From assembly GCF_004339765.1 (NCBI RefSeq), contig NZ_SMGO01000002.1:372001-436000 (forward strand): a DNA stretch of 64,000 nt, in the 5' to 3' direction. How positions within the stretch are numbered: the stretch's first letter is position 1; each line of letters begins with the position of its first letter. The notes under the pieces are model-generated. The model saw only the letters and a list, made by a program, of their open reading frames with translations, was not told where the DNA came from and made no database searches. A program made the position numbers and the translations under genes. The stretch comes from Albibacterium bauzanense (lineage in GTDB: Bacteria; Bacteroidota; Bacteroidia; Sphingobacteriales; Sphingobacteriaceae). This document shows positions 5,737 through 15,098 of this stretch, in pieces.

Positions 5737-5744
5737 TACATTTG
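5737..5744 (+). promoter_or_regulatory. -7 box of the arginine operon
   Basis: TACATTTG is an exact TAnnTTTG match; predicted start of transcription is near 5748, about 17 nt before the leader ATG. The -33 region is only a weak TTTA (about 5711-5718). Confidence 0.6.
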
Positions 5745-5764
5745 TTGTCAGATTTTTTATAACA

Positions 5765-5899
5765 ATGAAATCATTTTTAAACGATACAAACCTTATTCCT
5801 GCAGCACATAAAAGTGCTGTGTCACTGGATATTTGTATTCTTCGTTTTGCCAGCACACCTGCTTTAAGAGTCCGACGACCCCTAAAGCCAAGGGCTTAA
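5765..5899 (+). CDS. Arginine-rich leader peptide, putative attenuator of the arginine operon
   Basis: A 44-codon ORF (ATG 5765, TAA 5897) placed 21 nt after an exact -7 box and about 108 nt before the first biosynthetic gene. Five of its last 18 residues are arginine, and it ends RVRRPLKPRA. Such a position and composition upstream of an arginine operon fit a leader whose translation reports charged tRNA-Arg, or a nascent peptide that stalls the ribosome. A hairpin follows 19 nt after the stop. No signal peptide or domain is evident, so a stand-alone protein role is unlikely. The regulatory role is inferred. Confidence 0.72.
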   Translation: MKSFLNDTNLIPAAHKSAVSLDICILRFASTPALRVRRPLKPRA

Positions 5900-5917
5900 T
5901 ATTGGCATATCTCAGTT

Positions 5918-5946
5918 ATTTTTGAAGAAAGTCCCTCTTCAAAAAT
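5918..5946 (+). terminator. Leader hairpin, possible attenuator
   Basis: A perfect 11-bp stem (5918-5928 with 5936-5946, arm ATTTTTGAAGA) has the 7-nt loop AAGTCCC. It lies between the leader stop and the first structural gene. It has no strong T-tract right after the stem, so it may be Rho-assisted, or a pairing element rather than a classical terminator. The loop could pair with GGGCTT at 5892-5897, at the very end of the leader ORF, allowing for one bulged base. Confidence 0.5.
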
Positions 5947-6007
5947 TAATCAATAAATTTTTATCTTATATTAAAACGATTGTTTTAACAATAATGAATT
6001 TGTACAA

Positions 6008-6700
6008 ATGAACCTTTCAGATTTCATTGTAGTTCCTGCGACAGAAGTACATACCAAATATGCAGAACAAATCTGCACAGAAATGGCTGAATCAGCCAAA
6101 GCACGTGGTACTGGAATAGCGCGCAGAAAACCCGAATATGTTGCAAAAAAAATGCAAGAAGGGAAAGCAGTAATCGCTTTAACTAAAGAAGAAGGATTAT
6201 GGGCAGGCTTTTGCTATATAGAAACCTTTAGCCATGGCGAGTACGTTGCAAATTCTGGACTAATTGTTAATCCCGAATATCGTCAATGTGGATTAGCTAA
6301 GGCTATAAAGAAAAGGATTTTCTTGCTCTCAAGAGAAAAATATCCAACTGCCAAAATATTTGGTTTAACAACAGGTCGGGCAGTCATGAAGATAAATTCA
6401 GAGCTAGGCTATGAACCTGTCACTTATTCTGAACTTACAGACGACGAAGAATTTTGGAAAGGTTGCCAAAGCTGTGTAAATTACGAAACTTTATTAAGCA
6501 AGAATAAGAAAAACTGTATTTGTACAGCGATGCTTTGGGATCCGGTGGAAAAAGAAAAAGAGATTCGACAAAAGATTGAAGATAAAGCTCGTGCAAAAGA
6601 GCGTCTAAAACAGATCACCAAAAAATCGTCTCTTTTAAAAAGACTTAGTCTGAAATTTAGACGCTCAACCAAGATAGTTTTAACAATGATTCTCCATTAA
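6008..6700 (+). CDS. GNAT N-acyltransferase, first gene of the arginine operon
   Basis: A 230-aa GCN5-type acyltransferase. The fold core spans residues 1-150; LIVNPEYRQCGLAKAIKKRI near 86-105 is the motif A acyl-CoA site. Cysteines then occur as CQSC near 148-151 and CIC near 165-167, a pattern that could bind a metal. A lysine-rich coiled tail follows (about 175-225). As head of an operon that lacks a recognisable argA or argJ, it is the best candidate for the N-acyl-glutamate synthase step. The transcarbamylase in the operon suggests the acyl group may be succinyl. That is inference from context. The 24-bp gap to argG fits one transcript. Confidence 0.85.
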   Translation: MNLSDFIVVPATEVHTKYAEQICTEMAESAKARGTGIARRKPEYVAKKMQEGKAVIALTKEEGLWAGFCYIETFSHGEYVANSGLIVNPEYRQCGLAKAIKKRIFLLSREKYPTAKIFGLTTGRAVMKINSELGYEPVTYSELTDDEEFWKGCQSCVNYETLLSKNKKNCICTAMLWDPVEKEKEIRQKIEDKARAKERLKQITKKSSLLKRLSLKFRRSTKIVLTMILH

Positions 6701-6724: not shown

Positions 6725-7918
6725 ATGAAGAAAAAAGTAGTATTAGCTTATAGCGGCGGATTAGATACATCATATTGTGTAATTTACTTAACTCGTGATC
6801 TGGGTTTAGAAGTACATTCTGTTTTAGTAAATACAGGAGGCTTTTCTGATGAGGAACTTAAACAAGTAGAAAAAAGAGCCTATGATATGGGAGTAACTTC
6901 ACATAGGACAGTAGATGAAGTTGAAAACTATTATGAGAGCAGTATTAAATACTTAATCTTTGGTAATGTTTTAAAAAATGCTACTTACCCCCTTTCTGTA
7001 AGTGCGGAACGAGTTTCACAAGCTACTGCCATAGCAAAGTACGCGAAAGAAATAAACGCTGACTTCGTAGCTCATGGAAGTACGGGTGCAGGAAACGATC
7101 AGGTTCGCTTTGACATGATCTTCAATATATTAATACCTGAAGTAGCTATTATTACTCCAATTCGGGATATGCAGTTAAGCCGGGAAGAAGAGATTGCTTA
7201 TTTGCAAAAGCATGGAGTGGAATTTAATGCAGAAAAAGCTAAATATTCAATTAATAAAGGAATATGGGGAACTTCGGTAGGAGGAAAAGAAACACTAACT
7301 TCCGATCAAACCTTACCAGAAGAAGCATGGCCTACCCCAATTACTTCAACTGAGGCACAAAAGGTAGTAATCGAATTTAAACAAGGCGAACCAGTAGCTT
7401 TAAATGGGGTACAGTTAAAACCTACAGAAGTTATACAAAAACTCCAAAAGATTGCTCAGCCTTATGGAATTGGCAGAGATATCCATGTGGGAGATACGAT
7501 TATTGGAATAAAAGGAAGAGTAGGATTCGAAGCCGCTGCACCTATAATTATCATTAAAGCACATCACACGCTTGAGAAACATACACTTACAAAGTGGCAA
7601 TTAAGCTGGAAAGATCAATTAGCTGCCTTTTATGGTAACTGGATGCATGAAGGGCAATTCCATGATCCGGTAATGCGTGATATTGAAGCATTTTTATCTA
7701 ACTCACAAGAATTTGTGAATGGAAAAGTAATCGTAGAGCTTAATCCTCATCGTTTCCAGATTATCGGCATTGAGTCAGAAAATGATCTTATGTCAAATAA
7801 ATTCGGAAGCTATGGAGAAATGAACAAATCATGGACGGCAGATGATGTGAAAGGTTTTTCAAAGATATTTGGCAACCAGGTTATGATTTGGCATAAAATC
7901 AACAAAGGAGAAAATTAA
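6725..7918 (+). CDS. argG: Argininosuccinate synthase
   Basis: Joins citrulline and aspartate with ATP to give argininosuccinate. This 397-aa protein has the N-type PP-loop SGGLDTS at residues 10-16 and the conserved HGSTGAGNDQVRF segment near 115-127, which contacts citrulline and aspartate. Length is normal. The stop is immediately followed by the ATG of argC with no gap, so the two are translationally linked. In this operon argG comes ahead of the acyl-pathway genes. Confidence 0.97.
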   Translation: MKKKVVLAYSGGLDTSYCVIYLTRDLGLEVHSVLVNTGGFSDEELKQVEKRAYDMGVTSHRTVDEVENYYESSIKYLIFGNVLKNATYPLSVSAERVSQATAIAKYAKEINADFVAHGSTGAGNDQVRFDMIFNILIPEVAIITPIRDMQLSREEEIAYLQKHGVEFNAEKAKYSINKGIWGTSVGGKETLTSDQTLPEEAWPTPITSTEAQKVVIEFKQGEPVALNGVQLKPTEVIQKLQKIAQPYGIGRDIHVGDTIIGIKGRVGFEAAAPIIIIKAHHTLEKHTLTKWQLSWKDQLAAFYGNWMHEGQFHDPVMRDIEAFLSNSQEFVNGKVIVELNPHRFQIIGIESENDLMSNKFGSYGEMNKSWTADDVKGFSKIFGNQVMIWHKINKGEN

Positions 7919-8908
7919 ATGGATTCACAAGAGAAAATAAAAATAGGTATTGTTGGTTCTGCCGGATATACAGGAGGGGAGCTAATCAGATTACTCATTT
8001 ATCATCCGTATGCAAACATTGTTTTTGCACATAGTGAGAGCAATGGAAGTAAACCTGTTTCTTCTGTACATACAGATCTCATTGGAGAAACTGATCTTAA
8101 CTTCTCTAATACTCTCAGCAACGATATTGATGTTCTATTTTTATGTGTCGGTCATGAAAATGCTCGTAAATTCCTATCTGAAACTAATATACCTCAACAT
8201 ATTCGAATAATAGATCTGAGTCAGGATTTTAGACTAACTGCAAATTCTAATTTTCAAGGAAGAGAATTTATCTACGGCCTGCCAGAATTACAACGCGATA
8301 AAATCAAAGTTGCTCGCAATATTGCAAATGCAGGTTGCTTTGCAACTACTATTGAACTTGCGCTGTTACCACTTGCAAATAAAGGGTTAATAAACTCTGA
8401 GGTTCATGTAAATGCTACTACGGGCTCAACCGGTGCTGGTCAAAACCCAAGTGCAACTTCTCATTATAGCTGGAGAAATGATAATCTTTCTGCGTATAAA
8501 ATATTTGAGCATCAACATTTACTAGAGATAGGAGAAGTACTCTCTAACGCTTCTCAGCAAAGTCCGGTCATAAATTTCATCCCTCAACGGGGTGCCTTTT
8601 CTAGAGGGATCTTTGCTACAAGTTATTTAAAGAGCGATCTCAGTATTGAAGAAGCTTACAATATATATGAAGGGTTCTATAACTCGCATTCATTTACGCA
8701 TGTTAGCCGAAATAATATTGACTTGAAACTAGTTGTAAATACAAACAAATGCTTGTTACACCTGGTGAAGCATCAAGACAAGCTATTAATTATTAGCATG
8801 ACCGATAACCTTATTAAAGGAGCAAGCGGCCAGGCTGTACAAAATATGAATATTATGTTTGGTGTGGATGAGCATGCAGGGCTCAACCTAAAATCAAGCG
8901 TTTTTTAA
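7919..8908 (+). CDS. argC: N-acetyl/N-succinyl-gamma-glutamyl-phosphate reductase
   Basis: NADPH-dependent reductive dephosphorylation of N-acyl-glutamyl phosphate to the semialdehyde. The 329-aa protein has a Rossmann motif GSAGYTGGEL at 13-22 and the catalytic cysteine C140 within NAGCFATT. Length matches family members of about 320-345. It directly abuts argG and is followed 10 bp later by argD. The natural acyl group may be succinyl, given the transcarbamylase downstream. Confidence 0.96.
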   Translation: MDSQEKIKIGIVGSAGYTGGELIRLLIYHPYANIVFAHSESNGSKPVSSVHTDLIGETDLNFSNTLSNDIDVLFLCVGHENARKFLSETNIPQHIRIIDLSQDFRLTANSNFQGREFIYGLPELQRDKIKVARNIANAGCFATTIELALLPLANKGLINSEVHVNATTGSTGAGQNPSATSHYSWRNDNLSAYKIFEHQHLLEIGEVLSNASQQSPVINFIPQRGAFSRGIFATSYLKSDLSIEEAYNIYEGFYNSHSFTHVSRNNIDLKLVVNTNKCLLHLVKHQDKLLIISMTDNLIKGASGQAVQNMNIMFGVDEHAGLNLKSSVF

Positions 8909-8918
8909 TCCGGAACTC

Positions 8919-10052
8919 ATGAAACCTTTCGATGTATACCCTCTAAATCCAATTGAAATTACCAAAGCTTTGGACTTAAAGGTTTGGGATAACAAAGGGA
9001 TAGAATACTTAGATCTATATGGCGGACACGCGGTTATTTCGATAGGTCATACTCATCCTCATTATGTAAAAAGACTTACTGATCAATTAAACAAAGTAGC
9101 TTTTTATTCTAATTCAATTGAAAATCCACTACAGGTTCAATTGTCTAATTTATTAGGACATATATCTGGTAAAGCAGAATATGATCTGTTTCTTTGTTCA
9201 TCAGGAGCTGAAGCAAATGAAAATGCATTAAAGATTGCATCCTTCTATAACGGCAGGAAAAAAATTATAGCATTCAAAGGATCATTTCATGGTCGTACCT
9301 CATTGGCAGTTGCCTGTACCGATAATTCAAAAATAGTTTCTGCAGCAAACGCGCATGATGTTGAGTTCCTTCCTTTTAATGACCTGGAAGCCTTAGAAGC
9401 TGCCTTTGAAAGCTATGGAAATGAGGTCTCGTCTGTCATTATTGAAAGTATTCAAGGTGTTGGCGGCATCAAAGTAGCTACTCCTGAATTCTTATCGAAA
9501 ATCAGAGAGCTCTGTAATGAGTATAATGCTGTGTTTATTGCCGATGAAGTTCAATGCGGTTATGGAAGAACCGGAGAATTCTATGCACAAGATTATTCGA
9601 ATCAATTGGCAGATCTTTATACCATGGCAAAAGGGATGGGTAATGGCTTTCCAATCGGAGGGGTTGCTATTTCTTCTAAATTTAAACCATGGCATGGAAT
9701 GCTAGGTACCACCTTTGGTGGAAGCCACTTAGCCTGCGCGGCAGCCATAGCGGTTTTAGAGGTAATTAACGAAGAGAATTTATTGGCAAATGCCGCTGAA
9801 ATAGGAACTTATTTACTAAAGGAATTAAAATCTTTTGATAAAATATCTGAAGTAAGAGGAAGAGGCTTAATGATCGGTATTGAATTACCGCAGGAGCTAA
9901 ATCAAATAAGGAAAAACTTGCTCTTTAAAGATCATATATTTACAGGAGTAGCGAATCCTAACATTATCCGTTTACTTCCTTCATTAACCATTTCTAAAAA
10001 AGATGCCGATTTCTTTTTAGAATCTTTAGATAAACGACTGAAGGAGGCTTAA
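8919..10052 (+). CDS. argD: N-acyl-ornithine aminotransferase (class III, PLP)
   Basis: Transfers an amino group from glutamate to N-acyl-glutamate semialdehyde, giving N-acyl-ornithine. The 377-aa fold-type I enzyme shows the phosphate-binding SSGAEAN at 94-100, DEVQ at 209-212 (Asp contacts the PLP ring nitrogen), and the Schiff-base lysine K238 in MAKGMGNG. Lengths of 375-400 aa are usual. It may also act on succinylated substrate or in lysine synthesis, as ArgD enzymes often do. Confidence 0.95.
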   Translation: MKPFDVYPLNPIEITKALDLKVWDNKGIEYLDLYGGHAVISIGHTHPHYVKRLTDQLNKVAFYSNSIENPLQVQLSNLLGHISGKAEYDLFLCSSGAEANENALKIASFYNGRKKIIAFKGSFHGRTSLAVACTDNSKIVSAANAHDVEFLPFNDLEALEAAFESYGNEVSSVIIESIQGVGGIKVATPEFLSKIRELCNEYNAVFIADEVQCGYGRTGEFYAQDYSNQLADLYTMAKGMGNGFPIGGVAISSKFKPWHGMLGTTFGGSHLACAAAIAVLEVINEENLLANAAEIGTYLLKELKSFDKISEVRGRGLMIGIELPQELNQIRKNLLFKDHIFTGVANPNIIRLLPSLTISKKDADFFLESLDKRLKEA

Positions 10053-10080
10053 TTAATATTGCATAAATAAATCAAAGCAA

Positions 10081-11037
10081 ATGAAAAAATTCTTCTCTGT
10101 AAAGGATGTACCTGATCTTCGGAAATTTATTTCTGAGGCAAAGAATGTAAAGGCAAACCCATTCGGTCAAGAAAATTTAGGAAAACACAAAACACTTGGT
10201 CTCATCTTTCTAAACCCAAGTCTTCGCACCCGATTAAGTACACAAAAAGCGGGGCTCAATCTGGGCATGCAAGTAATGGTAATGAATATGGGTCAGGAAG
10301 GATGGGCGCTTGAAACAAAGGATGGTGTAGTTATGGATGGTACTTCTGTAGAACATATTCGGGAAGCCGCTGCCGTTATTGGACAATACTGCGATATTGT
10401 TGGCTTACGTTCCTTTCCTTCTCTTAAAGATCGTGAGGCAGATTACACTGAAGAGCTTTTCAATAAATTCATGGAGTTCTGTAAAGTCCCTGTTGTAAGT
10501 TTAGAAAGTGCAACTCGTCACCCTTTACAAAGCTTTGCCGATCTATTAACTATTGAAGAAGAGAAAAAGGTTGAGAAACCAAAAGTTGTTCTTACCTGGG
10601 CCCCTCATGTGAAAGCTTTGCCTCAGGCGGTTCCAAACTCCTTCGCAGAATGGATGAACAGAGCTCAAAAAGAAGGTATGATTGATTTTATAATTACTCA
10701 TCCAAAAGGTTATGAGCTTTCAGAAGAATTTACTGAAGGAGTGACTATTACACATAATCAATCAGAAGCTATAAAGGATGCAGATTTTGTTTATGTAAAA
10801 AACTGGTCCGGCTTTCAAGAATACGGTAAAATAATTGCAACTGATGAAGAGTGGATGCTCAATTCCAAAAGGTTAAGCAATCATACCAAGGTTATGCATT
10901 GTTTACCGGTTAGAAGAGATGTTGAACTTGCCTCTGAAATATTAGACGGGCCACAATCGCTGGTTCAAACAGAAGCAGGAAATCGTTTATGGGCAGCGCA
11001 AACTGTTTTAAAAACTATTTTAGAAGACCTATCTTAG
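10081..11037 (+). CDS. argF': N-succinyl-L-ornithine transcarbamylase (SOTCase type)
   Basis: Carbamoylates an N-acylated ornithine to N-acyl-citrulline, unlike ordinary ArgF. The 318-aa protein has the carbamoyl-phosphate motif SLRTR at 47-51, followed by LSTQKA as in the Bacteroides fragilis and Xanthomonas enzymes. It also has HPLQSFAD near 147-154 and HCLPVRRD near 270. Residue 90, which separates the two specificities (Pro in B. fragilis SOTCase, Glu in Xanthomonas AOTCase), is Val here. Published Glu-to-Val substitution in AOTCase gives succinylornithine activity, so I favour the succinyl substrate. The alignment was made from memory without gaps over residues 1-90. Confidence 0.9.
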   Translation: MKKFFSVKDVPDLRKFISEAKNVKANPFGQENLGKHKTLGLIFLNPSLRTRLSTQKAGLNLGMQVMVMNMGQEGWALETKDGVVMDGTSVEHIREAAAVIGQYCDIVGLRSFPSLKDREADYTEELFNKFMEFCKVPVVSLESATRHPLQSFADLLTIEEEKKVEKPKVVLTWAPHVKALPQAVPNSFAEWMNRAQKEGMIDFIITHPKGYELSEEFTEGVTITHNQSEAIKDADFVYVKNWSGFQEYGKIIATDEEWMLNSKRLSNHTKVMHCLPVRRDVELASEILDGPQSLVQTEAGNRLWAAQTVLKTILEDLS

Positions 11038-11052
11038 AGGCTGAAAAAGAAA

Positions 11053-11841
11053 ATGAGGAAATTAACCGTCATCAAAATTGGAGGAAACATAATTGATAAT
11101 CCCGATCAGTTAAAGAACTTCTTAAACAATTTTTCAGCGATTAAAGGTCCTAAGATATTAATCCACGGTGGTGGAAAAATAGCAACCAAGCTTGCCGCTG
11201 ATTTAGGAATTGAAGCCAAGCTAATAGACGGACGTAGGGTAACTGATGAGCAAACGTTAGATATCGTAACCATGGTTTATGCAGGCTTGATTAATAAAAA
11301 TATCGTTGCAGGTCTGCAAAGTTATGGATGTAACGCTATCGGACTCTCAGGTGCAGATGGGAACTGCATAAAAGCAATAAAAAGACCTGTAAAAACTATT
11401 GATTATGGATGGGTTGGCGACCTGTTAGAGAACTCGGTAAATGCAGAAAGCCTTATTGCTTTCTTAAATGCAGACTTCACTCCGGTCTTTTCCGCAATCA
11501 CTCATGATGGAGAAGGACGGCTTTTAAACACCAATGCAGATACAATTGCTTCAAGCATAGCTGTTGCTCTATCATCCCATTTCGAAACCTCCCTTATTTA
11601 TTGTTTTGAAAAAAAGGGTGTTTTAAGAGATGTCAATGATGAGGGTTCTGTTGTTTCAGAAATAAAAGAAAAAGATTTCATTCCTTTACAAAAAGAAGGT
11701 ATAGTAACCGATGGAATGATTCCGAAGCTCCATAACGCTTTCGATGCAATAAATAAAGGTGTTAAGGAAGTTTTAATAGGTCAGGCTTCAGATCTTCCTC
11801 TTCTAAAAGAAAATAAATTTGGCTCACGAATACTGAAATAA
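11053..11841 (+). CDS. argB: N-acetyl/N-succinyl-glutamate kinase
   Basis: Phosphorylates the gamma-carboxylate of N-acyl-glutamate. The 262-aa amino-acid-kinase fold has the phosphate-binding lysine K8 with GGN at 10-12, the GGGK loop at 39-42, and the C-terminal DGM motif that contacts nucleotide. It lacks the long N-terminal helix of arginine-inhibited hexameric ArgB enzymes, so strong feedback inhibition is not expected (inference). That would put more weight on transcription-level control by the leader. Spacing to proC is only 7 bp. Confidence 0.94.
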   Translation: MRKLTVIKIGGNIIDNPDQLKNFLNNFSAIKGPKILIHGGGKIATKLAADLGIEAKLIDGRRVTDEQTLDIVTMVYAGLINKNIVAGLQSYGCNAIGLSGADGNCIKAIKRPVKTIDYGWVGDLLENSVNAESLIAFLNADFTPVFSAITHDGEGRLLNTNADTIASSIAVALSSHFETSLIYCFEKKGVLRDVNDEGSVVSEIKEKDFIPLQKEGIVTDGMIPKLHNAFDAINKGVKEVLIGQASDLPLLKENKFGSRILK

Positions 11842-11848
11842 TAAGACA

Positions 11849-12658
11849 ATGAAAAAAGTTACAATTATCGGATCGGGAAACATCGGTCTATCTTTAGCAA
11901 AAGGATTGGTTAACAAAGCCTTTTGTTCTCCAAAAGAAGTGACCTTAACTCGTAGAAATATCCAACATTTAACTGAAGCCGTTAGTCTTGGTTTTGAAAT
12001 TAGTTCCAATAATGCCGAGGCAATAAAAGGCGCTCATATCATTGTTCTAGCTATTTTACCTCAGCAATTAAATGATGTGTTAGAAGAAATAGCAAATCAT
12101 TTAGATCCTAAAAAACAATTGATTGTGTCGGTAATTTCTGGTGTAACCTGCCGGGATATCAAAAATAAGCTTGGTCAAGATATTCAGATTATTCGTGCAA
12201 TGCCTAATACAGCCATTTCAATCGGCCAATCTATGACCTGTATTGCAGGTGAAGAAGCCAGTAAGGAAAACATGCAGGAGGTAACCCGAATGTTTGAAAC
12301 CGTAGGGGCGGTGATGAAAATCAATGAAGATTTAATGACTGCTGCTACCGCTTTATGCTCTTGTGGTATCGCCTTTTTCTTAAGAGGAATCAGAGCGGCT
12401 TCTCAAGGAGGAGTGGAAGTAGGATTCCATGCTGATGAAGCATTAAAAATGGCTGTACAAACAGCTAAAGGTGCAGCCGATTTACTTTTACAGACACATA
12501 GCCATCCAGAAAGCGAAATAGATAAAGTAACATCTCCGAAAGGCTGTACAATAGCCGGACTAAATGAAATGGAACATAATGGGTTCAGTTCATCACTTAT
12601 TAAAGGAATAAAATTATCAGCTATAAAAGCTGGTGGCTTATATAGTGCCGACAGCTAA
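11849..12658 (+). CDS. proC: Pyrroline-5-carboxylate reductase
   Basis: Last step of proline synthesis: NAD(P)H reduction of pyrroline-5-carboxylate. The 269-aa protein begins with the Rossmann motif GSGNIGLSLA at 8-17. The C-terminal all-helical dimerisation domain contains the conserved SPKGCTIAGL stretch near 230. It is embedded between argB and argE with gaps under 10 bp. Placing a proline gene in an arginine operon suggests that glutamate-, ornithine- and proline-linked flux is controlled together, or that ornithine is turned into proline here. No proA or proB is in the window. Confidence 0.94.
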   Translation: MKKVTIIGSGNIGLSLAKGLVNKAFCSPKEVTLTRRNIQHLTEAVSLGFEISSNNAEAIKGAHIIVLAILPQQLNDVLEEIANHLDPKKQLIVSVISGVTCRDIKNKLGQDIQIIRAMPNTAISIGQSMTCIAGEEASKENMQEVTRMFETVGAVMKINEDLMTAATALCSCGIAFFLRGIRAASQGGVEVGFHADEALKMAVQTAKGAADLLLQTHSHPESEIDKVTSPKGCTIAGLNEMEHNGFSSSLIKGIKLSAIKAGGLYSADS

Positions 12659-12666
12659 TTCATACT

Positions 12667-13734
12667 ATGCAAAGTATACAGACTCTTACAAAGGAGAGTA
12701 TTCTTCTTTTACAATCTCTAATTTGTATACCTTCATTTAGCAAGGAAGAAGATAAAACTGCCTTAGAAATAAGCCGGTTTTTAAGAGAATCTCAGATAGC
12801 ATACCAACGAAAAGGTAATAATATCTGGTGTCATAACCGGTTCTTTGACCCTGATAAACCTACTATTCTTTTAAATTCACATCACGATACAGTTAAACCA
12901 AATTCAGGCTATACAAGAGATCCTTTTCTCTCTACTATTGAAGAAGATAAGTTATATGGCTTAGGGAGTAATGATGCTGGTGGCAGCTTAGTATCCTTAC
13001 TTGCCGCATTTCGTTATTTCAATGATAAAAAAGATTTGAAATACAACCTTTGTTATGCAGCTACTGCAGAAGAAGAGATTTCTGGCAGAAATGGTATTGA
13101 ATCTATATTTGATGATTTAGGGGAACTTGACTTTGCAATCGTCGGAGAACCAACTTTAATGCAGTTAGCAATAGCCGAGCGAGGATTAATGGTGATTGAC
13201 TGTGAAGCAACAGGCAAAGCAGGGCATGCTGCAAGAAATGAAGGAGAAAATGCTATCTATAAAGCGATAGAAGATATAAATTGGTTCAGAACTTTCAGAT
13301 TTCCAAAAGAGTCGACTGTATTCGGACCGATTTCAATGAATGTAACAATCATTGAGGCCGGATCACAACACAACGTTATTCCTGCCAGCTGTAAATTCAC
13401 TGTCGATATCCGAGTGACGGATGCTTATAGCAATGAAGAAGTTCTAGAAATCATTCAACGACATATAAAGTCGCAAGCAATTGCTCGATCTACCAGATTA
13501 AAACCATCATCTATCTCTTTGAGCCACCCGATTGTTAAAGCAGGTATTGCCCTGGGTCATGAAACTTATGGCTCTCCTACTACGAGTGACCAAGCTCTGT
13601 TAAACATTCCATCCTTAAAATTAGGTCCTGGAGATTCGGCAAGGTCGCATATGGCTGATGAATATATTTACATCCATGAAATTGAAGAAGGAATAAAATT
13701 CTATATTCAAATCCTTGATTCCATACTACATTAA
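12667..13734 (+). CDS. argE: M20 family deacylase (N-acyl-citrulline/ornithine deacetylase, ArgE-like)
   Basis: A zinc-dependent M20 amidohydrolase of 355 aa. Metal-binding residues include H73 in SHHDT and D103 in GSNDAGG; the catalytic Glu lies in the EEE run at 135-137. The dimerisation lid domain spans about 170-280. In the acyl-citrulline version of the pathway this enzyme removes the acyl group from N-acyl-citrulline just before ArgG acts, rather than from N-acyl-ornithine. The operon order is consistent with that. Which substrate it prefers is not visible in the sequence. Confidence 0.9.
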   Translation: MQSIQTLTKESILLLQSLICIPSFSKEEDKTALEISRFLRESQIAYQRKGNNIWCHNRFFDPDKPTILLNSHHDTVKPNSGYTRDPFLSTIEEDKLYGLGSNDAGGSLVSLLAAFRYFNDKKDLKYNLCYAATAEEEISGRNGIESIFDDLGELDFAIVGEPTLMQLAIAERGLMVIDCEATGKAGHAARNEGENAIYKAIEDINWFRTFRFPKESTVFGPISMNVTIIEAGSQHNVIPASCKFTVDIRVTDAYSNEEVLEIIQRHIKSQAIARSTRLKPSSISLSHPIVKAGIALGHETYGSPTTSDQALLNIPSLKLGPGDSARSHMADEYIYIHEIEEGIKFYIQILDSILH

Positions 13735-13766
13735 TTACACGATTCTATCCATAAAGATAAACTGAA

Positions 13767-15098
13767 ATGAAACTCTGGCAAAAAAATACAAAAACCGAAA
13801 ATGCAGTAGATAAATTTACCGTAGGCCAAGACAGGGAATTAGATGTTCATTTAGCTGCTGCTGATATCTTAGGATCATTAGCACACACGCAAATGTTGGA
13901 AAGTATCGGGTTATTGACCAAAGCTGAATTAGTACAGATTCAAGAGGAATTAAAATCAATTTTCAAAGAAGTAGAAAAGGGTGATTTCAAAATCGATAGT
14001 GATGTAGAAGATGTACATTCTCAAATAGAATTTCTTCTTACCCAACGTATAGGAGAAGCCGGTAAAAAAATACATAGTGGACGTTCACGAAATGACCAGG
14101 TTTTAGTTGATCTAAAGTTATTTTTCAGAAGTGAGATTGAACATATCGCTAATAATACCAACCTGCTTTTTAATCAACTAATTAATTTAAGTGAGAAACA
14201 TAAAGCAATCTTAATTCCCGGGTATACTCATCTTCAAATAGCGATGCCTTCATCCTTTGGATTATGGTTTGGTGCTTATGCAGAGAGTTTAATTGACGAT
14301 CTGGAGATGATGTTAGCCGCATGGAAAGTCTGCAATAAAAACCCATTGGGTTCAGCTGCTGGTTATGGCTCTTCTTTTCCTTTGAACCGGACTCTTACAA
14401 CCCAATTACTGGGTTTTGATACTTTAAATTACAATGTCGTATATGCACAGATGGGAAGAGGTAAAACTGAACGGGTTTTAGCCCAAGGCATGTCTTCTAT
14501 TGCAGCAACACTTGCTAAATTCTCAATGGATGTCTGTTTATATATGAATCAAAACTTTGGTTTTCTCTCTTTTCCAGACGAGTTAACTACTGGATCCAGT
14601 ATTATGCCTCATAAAAAAAATCCAGACGTGTTTGAACTTATCCGTTCTCGTTGTAATAAGATTCAAGCTTTACCCAATGAAATTGCTATGATGACTGTTA
14701 ATTTGCCTTCCGGCTATCATCGTGATTTACAATTACTAAAAGAGAACCTATTCCCCGCATTTGAATCACTAAACGAATGTTTAATTATGTGTAATCATAT
14801 GCTGGAGAATATTATTATAAAAAATAATATCATAGACGATACTAAATATGACTACTTATTTAGTGTTGAAGTGGTAAATAACGAAGTACTAAAAGGTGTG
14901 CCTTTTCGTGAAGCCTATAAGAATATCGGTATGTCTATAGAAAATGGAACCTTCAAACCTTTAAGAGAAGTAAATCATACACACGAAGGAAGCATTGGAA
15001 ACCTATGCAACGAACAAATCAAGGATCAATTTAATAAGGTTTACAGCTCCTTTAACTTTAACAAAGTTAATCAAGCATTAAAGGAATTAGTTTCCTAA
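13767..15098 (+). CDS. argH: Argininosuccinate lyase
   Basis: Splits argininosuccinate into arginine and fumarate. The 443-aa fumarase-superfamily protein has the signature SSIMPHKKNP at 277-286 (mobile catalytic serine loop), HSGRSRNDQ at 103-111, and the catalytic His in GYTHLQ near 152-157. It is the last gene of the operon; the next gene, hisS, faces it 30 bp away. Only a weak 6-bp stem lies in that gap, so how the operon ends is unclear. Confidence 0.96.
   Translation: MKLWQKNTKTENAVDKFTVGQDRELDVHLAAADILGSLAHTQMLESIGLLTKAELVQIQEELKSIFKEVEKGDFKIDSDVEDVHSQIEFLLTQRIGEAGKKIHSGRSRNDQVLVDLKLFFRSEIEHIANNTNLLFNQLINLSEKHKAILIPGYTHLQIAMPSSFGLWFGAYAESLIDDLEMMLAAWKVCNKNPLGSAAGYGSSFPLNRTLTTQLLGFDTLNYNVVYAQMGRGKTERVLAQGMSSIAATLAKFSMDVCLYMNQNFGFLSFPDELTTGSSIMPHKKNPDVFELIRSRCNKIQALPNEIAMMTVNLPSGYHRDLQLLKENLFPAFESLNECLIMCNHMLENIIIKNNIIDDTKYDYLFSVEVVNNEVLKGVPFREAYKNIGMSIENGTFKPLREVNHTHEGSIGNLCNEQIKDQFNKVYSSFNFNKVNQALKELVS

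Follow-up and report, generated by a model that had tools for sequence, protein, structure and literature searches.

The arginine operon of Albibacterium bauzanense is headed by a short, arginine-rich leader ORF that, together with the RNA folds around its end, probably serves as the arginine sensor of many Bacteroidota lacking ArgR, with the position of a ribosome pause as the signal. The sequences make it rather likely that this leader is an arginine-responsive, ribosome-mediated attenuator of the operon, acting mainly by closing translation of the first gene, which encodes a GNAT-family protein. Computational comparison with related loci revealed the leader itself, selection on its end, codon bias and RNA pairings, and detected ArgR never co-occurs with it. 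Ribosome-mediated control is the best reading because the leader, its Arg-rich end and a loop-to-tail RNA pairing are conserved, most of them with covariation. The locus combines features of such attenuators, namely a selected short ORF, codons for the end product enriched near its end and, in Sphingobacterium and allies (clade A), RNA pairing of the leader end that a stalled ribosome would block.

The window analysed here is the whole 64,000-nt stretch of contig NZ_SMGO01000002.1 (positions 372,001 to 436,000), and all features described lie on its forward strand. A previous sequence-only reading had described an exact TAnnTTTG box 20 nt before a 44-codon ORF with five Arg among its last 18 residues and the end RVRRPLKPRA, and all of these are present. 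The box, a promoter -7 element (TACATTTG, 5737-5744), precedes an ORF (5765-5899) with its ATG at 5765, its TAA stop at 5897-5899 and the translation MKSFLNDTNLIPAAHKSAVSLDICILRFASTPALRVRRPLKPRA, whose C-terminus reads LRVRRPLKPRA. Among 199 relatives' loci, 70 carry an exact box within 110 nt of the leader ATG (expected 0.018 per locus), with a position peak 31-60 nt upstream of it. The nine-gene arginine operon predicted downstream was also borne out, with the order GNAT-argG-argC-argD-carbamoyltransferase-argB-proC-argE-like-argH. Gene identities from argG to argH (6725-15098), including the acetyl/succinylornithine carbamoyltransferase-like gene, come from NCBIfam matches, while the operon-head GNAT (6008-6700), the presumed regulated gene, has only weak Pfam matches and no NCBIfam model, and is probably the N-acylglutamate synthase of the pathway. 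A five-codon ORF (MNLYK, 5994-6011), matched by MSLCQ in the sister species, overlaps the GNAT ATG with its TGA, which could reflect translational coupling or chance.

Relatives were found by searching the GNAT protein in a family sample and a class sample, with matches in 178 of 201 and 99 of 295 genomes, respectively, and argG adjoins GNAT, the order seen in the window, in every checked locus except one. Ahead of GNAT, leader-type ORFs occur in Sphingobacterium, Parapedobacter, Olivibacter-like genomes, Mucilaginibacter, Pedobacter, Daejeonella, Chitinophagaceae and Myroides, the genus names being those of a named genome collection except for Olivibacter, which was assigned by kinship. Their N-terminal part is variable and their C-terminal end conserved, the last residues before the stop reading R.RRPILPRA, RRPFMPRV, SRRRPYMPRV, SRQNFTPRI, VPFFPRR, RFSRSRA and similar. 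Leaders were called by rule as ORFs with an ATG start, 24-75 codons, a stop 40-200 nt upstream of GNAT, Arg at position -2 and at least two Arg within the last ten residues. This rule was satisfied in 217 of 290 loci, a partly redundant set, compared with 1.4% of shuffles and 3/290 reverse strands, so the window leader is not a chance ORF. Leader length has a median of 44 codons with a tight spread around it. At least one rule-based leader was found in 17 of the 33 families of the class sample, a few single matches being doubtful. The possibly most distant members, far outside the window's family, are two loci of one family (L334 and L336, family f12), whose short leaders end NRIRNRRPSRA 54 nt upstream of GNAT. 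Of 100 genomes, 12 contain the tail pattern, each a single time (backwards control, 0), and across these 100 genomes it was located in the arginine operon only. A second weak peptide match in the window genome (C2:457463) was dismissed as chance, as it falls within a long GTPase-like ORF.

The leader tail is selected as protein, and in four of five groups the 12 codons before it drift. The pN/pS of the last 12 versus the preceding 12 codons is 0.22/0.86, 0.36/0.81, 0.45/0.90, 0.27/0.41 (Pedobacter) and 0.38/1.02 in five groups. The check suggested with the sequence-only reading, for a leader with a conserved end ahead of GNAT-argG in relatives, therefore came out positive, both in the 217 loci and in the tail pN/pS of 0.22-0.45. 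Arg stands at -2 in 163 of 167 ORFs picked solely by having at least three Arg in the last ten residues. Because tail DNA is near-invariant in close relatives and forms part of RNA helices, one could imagine that RNA structure alone is conserved around a chance ORF from which no peptide is translated. Such an account hardly seems credible against amino-acid-level selection with synonymous change across groups that differ in their RNA pairings, a conserved length and start, and Arg(-2) across families.

In the window, only three pairings are present at and after the leader end. The P1 hairpin (5887-5906; GCCAA, 5887-5891, with UUGGC, 5902-5906; 5 bp) encloses the leader stop codon, and the 11-bp P2 hairpin (5918-5946, arms 5918-5928 and 5936-5946) presents the loop AAGUCCC, just as the sequence-only reading had it. 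The third is a pseudoknot between GGGCUU (5892-5897), comprising the last Arg-Ala codons and the first stop base, and AAGUCC of the P2 loop (5929-5934). The earlier suggestion of this pairing holds, except that the bulge it invoked is unnecessary, as six continuous pairs form, one of them G-U. The sister species retains the P2 hairpin with a different stem sequence and the loop AAGCCCC. The window leader region folds only slightly better than shuffles (z -1.63). A long-range helix was searched for in the window and is not claimed, since the best leader-to-GNAT duplex reaches only -5.2 kcal/mol, versus -11.3 kcal/mol in the sister species. An A/U-rich hairpin (UUAAAAC-GAUU-GUUUUAA, approximately 5970-5987) lies near the GNAT start and is not followed by a U-run.

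Relatives extend this picture considerably. Given 35 Sphingobacterium-type sequences, RNAalifold, unprompted, paired leader CGACCY with RGGUC, which lies directly before the GNAT start; the 5' arm of this helix in Sphingobacterium and Parapedobacter is the equivalent of window codons CGA CGA CCC (Arg-Arg-Pro, 5873-5881), which contain the rare CGA pair. In clade A, the stop-codon hairpin, second hairpin, loop-to-tail pairing and long-range helix form a covarying pseudoknot. Counting these four helices (long-range, P1, loop-to-tail and P2), 93.8% of cells are paired versus 28-43% in slid controls, the P1 counts being underestimates because five Sphingobacterium rows are shifted one column in P1. 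The compensatory changes that had been proposed as a check were found, with 54 two-sided changes versus 18 in shuffles and a covariation score of 0.262 versus 0.157, although the covariation partly reflects relatedness and that of the long-range helix rests on one column. Loop-to-tail pairs switch between CGAGCU/AGCUCG and CGGGCU/AGUCCG, and a further paired change is CCU/AGG to CCC/GGG. A second alignment, including the window and sister species, is 94.2% paired with 16 versus 4 two-sided changes. In a register-free test, 98% of clade A sequences have a P1 of at least 6 bp versus 9% of controls, and 88% versus 13% have the long-range helix. The latter was rejected as a general rule, being absent or weak outside clade A: Mucilaginibacter has tail-to-downstream pairing (78% vs 34%) and neither P1 nor long-range helix, and the Pedobacter helix is weak (55% vs 24% at 6 bp, 10% vs 8% at 7 bp). 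When the leader end was masked in 50 clade A sequences, the GNAT start region opened in 29 and closed in 4, its mean unpaired probability rising from 0.28 to 0.38.

We infer that the leader is translated, that ribosomes stall on it and in which direction the operon responds. The mRNA would start just before the leader ORF, judging by the promoter box. With ample Arg-tRNA, the ribosome would read through the tail, its rare CGA and remaining Arg codons included, and leave at the stop, and the freed end would form the hairpins at and behind the stop codon, joined by the loop-to-tail pseudoknot. In Sphingobacterium, Parapedobacter and Olivibacter-like genomes, it would also pair just upstream of the GNAT start, which would shut off translation of the first gene and reduce expression of the operon. 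With scarce Arg-tRNA, the ribosome would stall on the tail Arg codons and cover the pairing strands, and GNAT would stay open. In clade A, stalling at any of the tail Arg codons would place the ribosome over the strand that pairs with the region upstream of GNAT, so that starvation would open GNAT, and this geometry favours translational attenuation.

The sequence-only reading had proposed the architecture of ribosome-mediated attenuation; the conserved pairings uphold the ribosome-mediated part, whereas its classical transcriptional form lacks a terminator in the window. No intrinsic terminator was found in the window, where the best terminator-like score is -0.4 kcal/mol, or in the sister species, and terminator signals in Sphingobacterium, Mucilaginibacter and Pedobacter differ little or not at all from those in shuffles. 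P2 was rejected as an intrinsic terminator, the sequence after it being A/U-rich and free of a U-run. With no terminator in the window, the leader is not classed with the trp-type attenuators. In clade B (Daejeonella and allies), a hairpin plus U-run 10-14 nt before GNAT is present in 50% of sequences versus 19% of shuffles, and a strong terminator of this kind (-12.2 kcal/mol) was seen in Parapedobacter. Even with these signals, classical transcription attenuation through an intrinsic terminator between leader and GNAT appears quite improbable as the explanation. As terminators are confined to certain lineages and the window has none, different lineages may have swapped the output and retained the sensor. 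Six Daejeonella-type loci (L139, L143, L151, L152, L221 and L225) have two hairpin/U-run units directly before GNAT (GACUA..UAGUCUUUUUU and CCG..CGGAUUUUUUU), which are apparently tandem intrinsic terminators.

Codon usage is skewed in the tail. CGA makes up 295 of 617 tail Arg codons (48%) versus 87/1279 (7%) in the GNAT gene, and is enriched in five of six groups. Among the 30 tRNA loci scanned in the window genome (six others of long, class II size were left out), tRNA-Arg anticodons were ACG, CCG, TCT and CCT, and no tRNA-Arg(TCG) was found. CGA is therefore presumably read by tRNA-Arg(ACG) alone, through inosine, and CGA-inosine is the weakest pairing. The exception is Pedobacter, whose leaders have about two tail Arg codons, none of them CGA, which is odd for a starvation sensor.

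The tail is also conserved beyond Arg, with Pro(-3) in 149 and F/Y/I(-5) in 173 of 199 leaders and A/V/I common at -1. It is kept in Mucilaginibacter and Pedobacter, which lack P1 and a strong long-range helix; that residues other than Arg stay conserved even there suggests that the peptide itself may slow the ribosome, either at Pro-Arg or on reaching the stop. TGA ends 125 of 174 leaders but only 8 of 106 of the GNAT genes that follow, a hint that termination itself plays a part. Together with the length held near 44 codons, these features speak for an arrest peptide, whose hydrophobic-x-Pro-Arg-Ala/Val/Ile-stop tail would stall the ribosome at the penultimate Arg or the stop, free arginine or arginyl-tRNA being sensed in the tunnel or A site and the RNA switch lying downstream of the stall. 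A peptide-only sensor would have no need of the strong bias toward rare CGA, and in clade A arrest at high arginine would open GNAT, the wrong sign for a biosynthetic operon, which makes this mechanism on the whole unlikely as judged from the sequences. We are similarly doubtful of its broader form, a widespread arginine-sensing arrest peptide of about 44 residues, often stalling at UGA and exchanging with ArgR at the operon head across Bacteroidota.

The relation to ArgR is compatible with ribosome-mediated attenuation. ArgR (PF01316) was not found in the window genome by a search that detected 9 of 14 controls, which fits leader-based control. In the class sample, 38 genomes have only the leader, 8 only ArgR, none both and 52 neither, with no data for one, and given the 52 genomes with neither the association is modest on these counts alone. 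Of 98 GNAT-bearing genomes in this sample, 60 yielded no leader, and in 52 of those ArgR was not detected either. In seven genomes (L323-L329), argR lies directly upstream of GNAT-argG on the same strand, the place occupied by the leader in others. Of the eight ArgR calls, one (G361) is a weak match at another site in its genome. The presence of argR at the same operon head in other lineages suggests that two unrelated sensors exchange for one task.

The trp, his and leu attenuators of Enterobacteria have end-product codons at the operon head, mutually exclusive RNA pairings and an intrinsic terminator. Here, too, a codon cluster for the end-product amino acid heads its biosynthetic operon, with mutually exclusive RNA pairings; unlike those leaders, which end in an intrinsic terminator, the window has none, the relatives' leader pairs with the GNAT start region and conservation of the peptide tail is not limited to Arg. 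The arrest peptides TnaC and SpeFL stall for other ligands and likewise have conserved non-sensor residues at their end, which here are Pro(-3), a hydrophobic side chain at -5 and Ala, Val or Ile at -1. The fungal arginine attenuator peptide is a eukaryotic leader, similarly placed upstream of an arginine gene, that arrests at high arginine; no sequence relation is claimed. The closest known system is orf34-speF of Salmonella, a short leader ORF (orf34/SpeFL, also in E. coli) with Arg codons that respond to arginine, whose end is able to base-pair to the ribosome-binding region of speF, the ribosome position deciding the fold (PMC6386406). Our leader resembles it in having Arg codons and an end that can pair near the start of the downstream gene, but orf34/SpeFL controls polyamine rather than arginine synthesis, involves Rho and RNase G and lies about 500 nt from its gene, compared with about 110 nt here; by the Pfam test (no match to E 0.1) the SpeFL/ORF34 peptide is unrelated to the window leader. 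The leader has no match in Rfam, Pfam (to E 0.1) or NCBIfam, and Rfam models at gathering score (riboswitches, T-boxes and others) gave 0 matches in the window and 0 in ten relatives' loci. The earlier remark that such control is little described in Bacteroidota is roughly right: we found no description of an arginine leader in this phylum in the openly readable texts (main texts without supplements), while clues to leader-peptide attenuation upstream of amino-acid operons have been mentioned for Flavobacterium psychrophilum, of the same phylum, in one main-text sentence, a passage that does not name arginine and gives no account of the operons, peptide or mechanism (PMC9723704).

Bacteroidota are major bacteria of soil, water and gut, and the control of their amino-acid synthesis is little known. 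A leader conserved over many families and coupled, in some of them, to a pseudoknot that extends to the start of the first gene would explain how arginine synthesis is controlled where ArgR is not detected. Because peptide, codons and RNA are separately conserved, which part senses arginine is directly testable.
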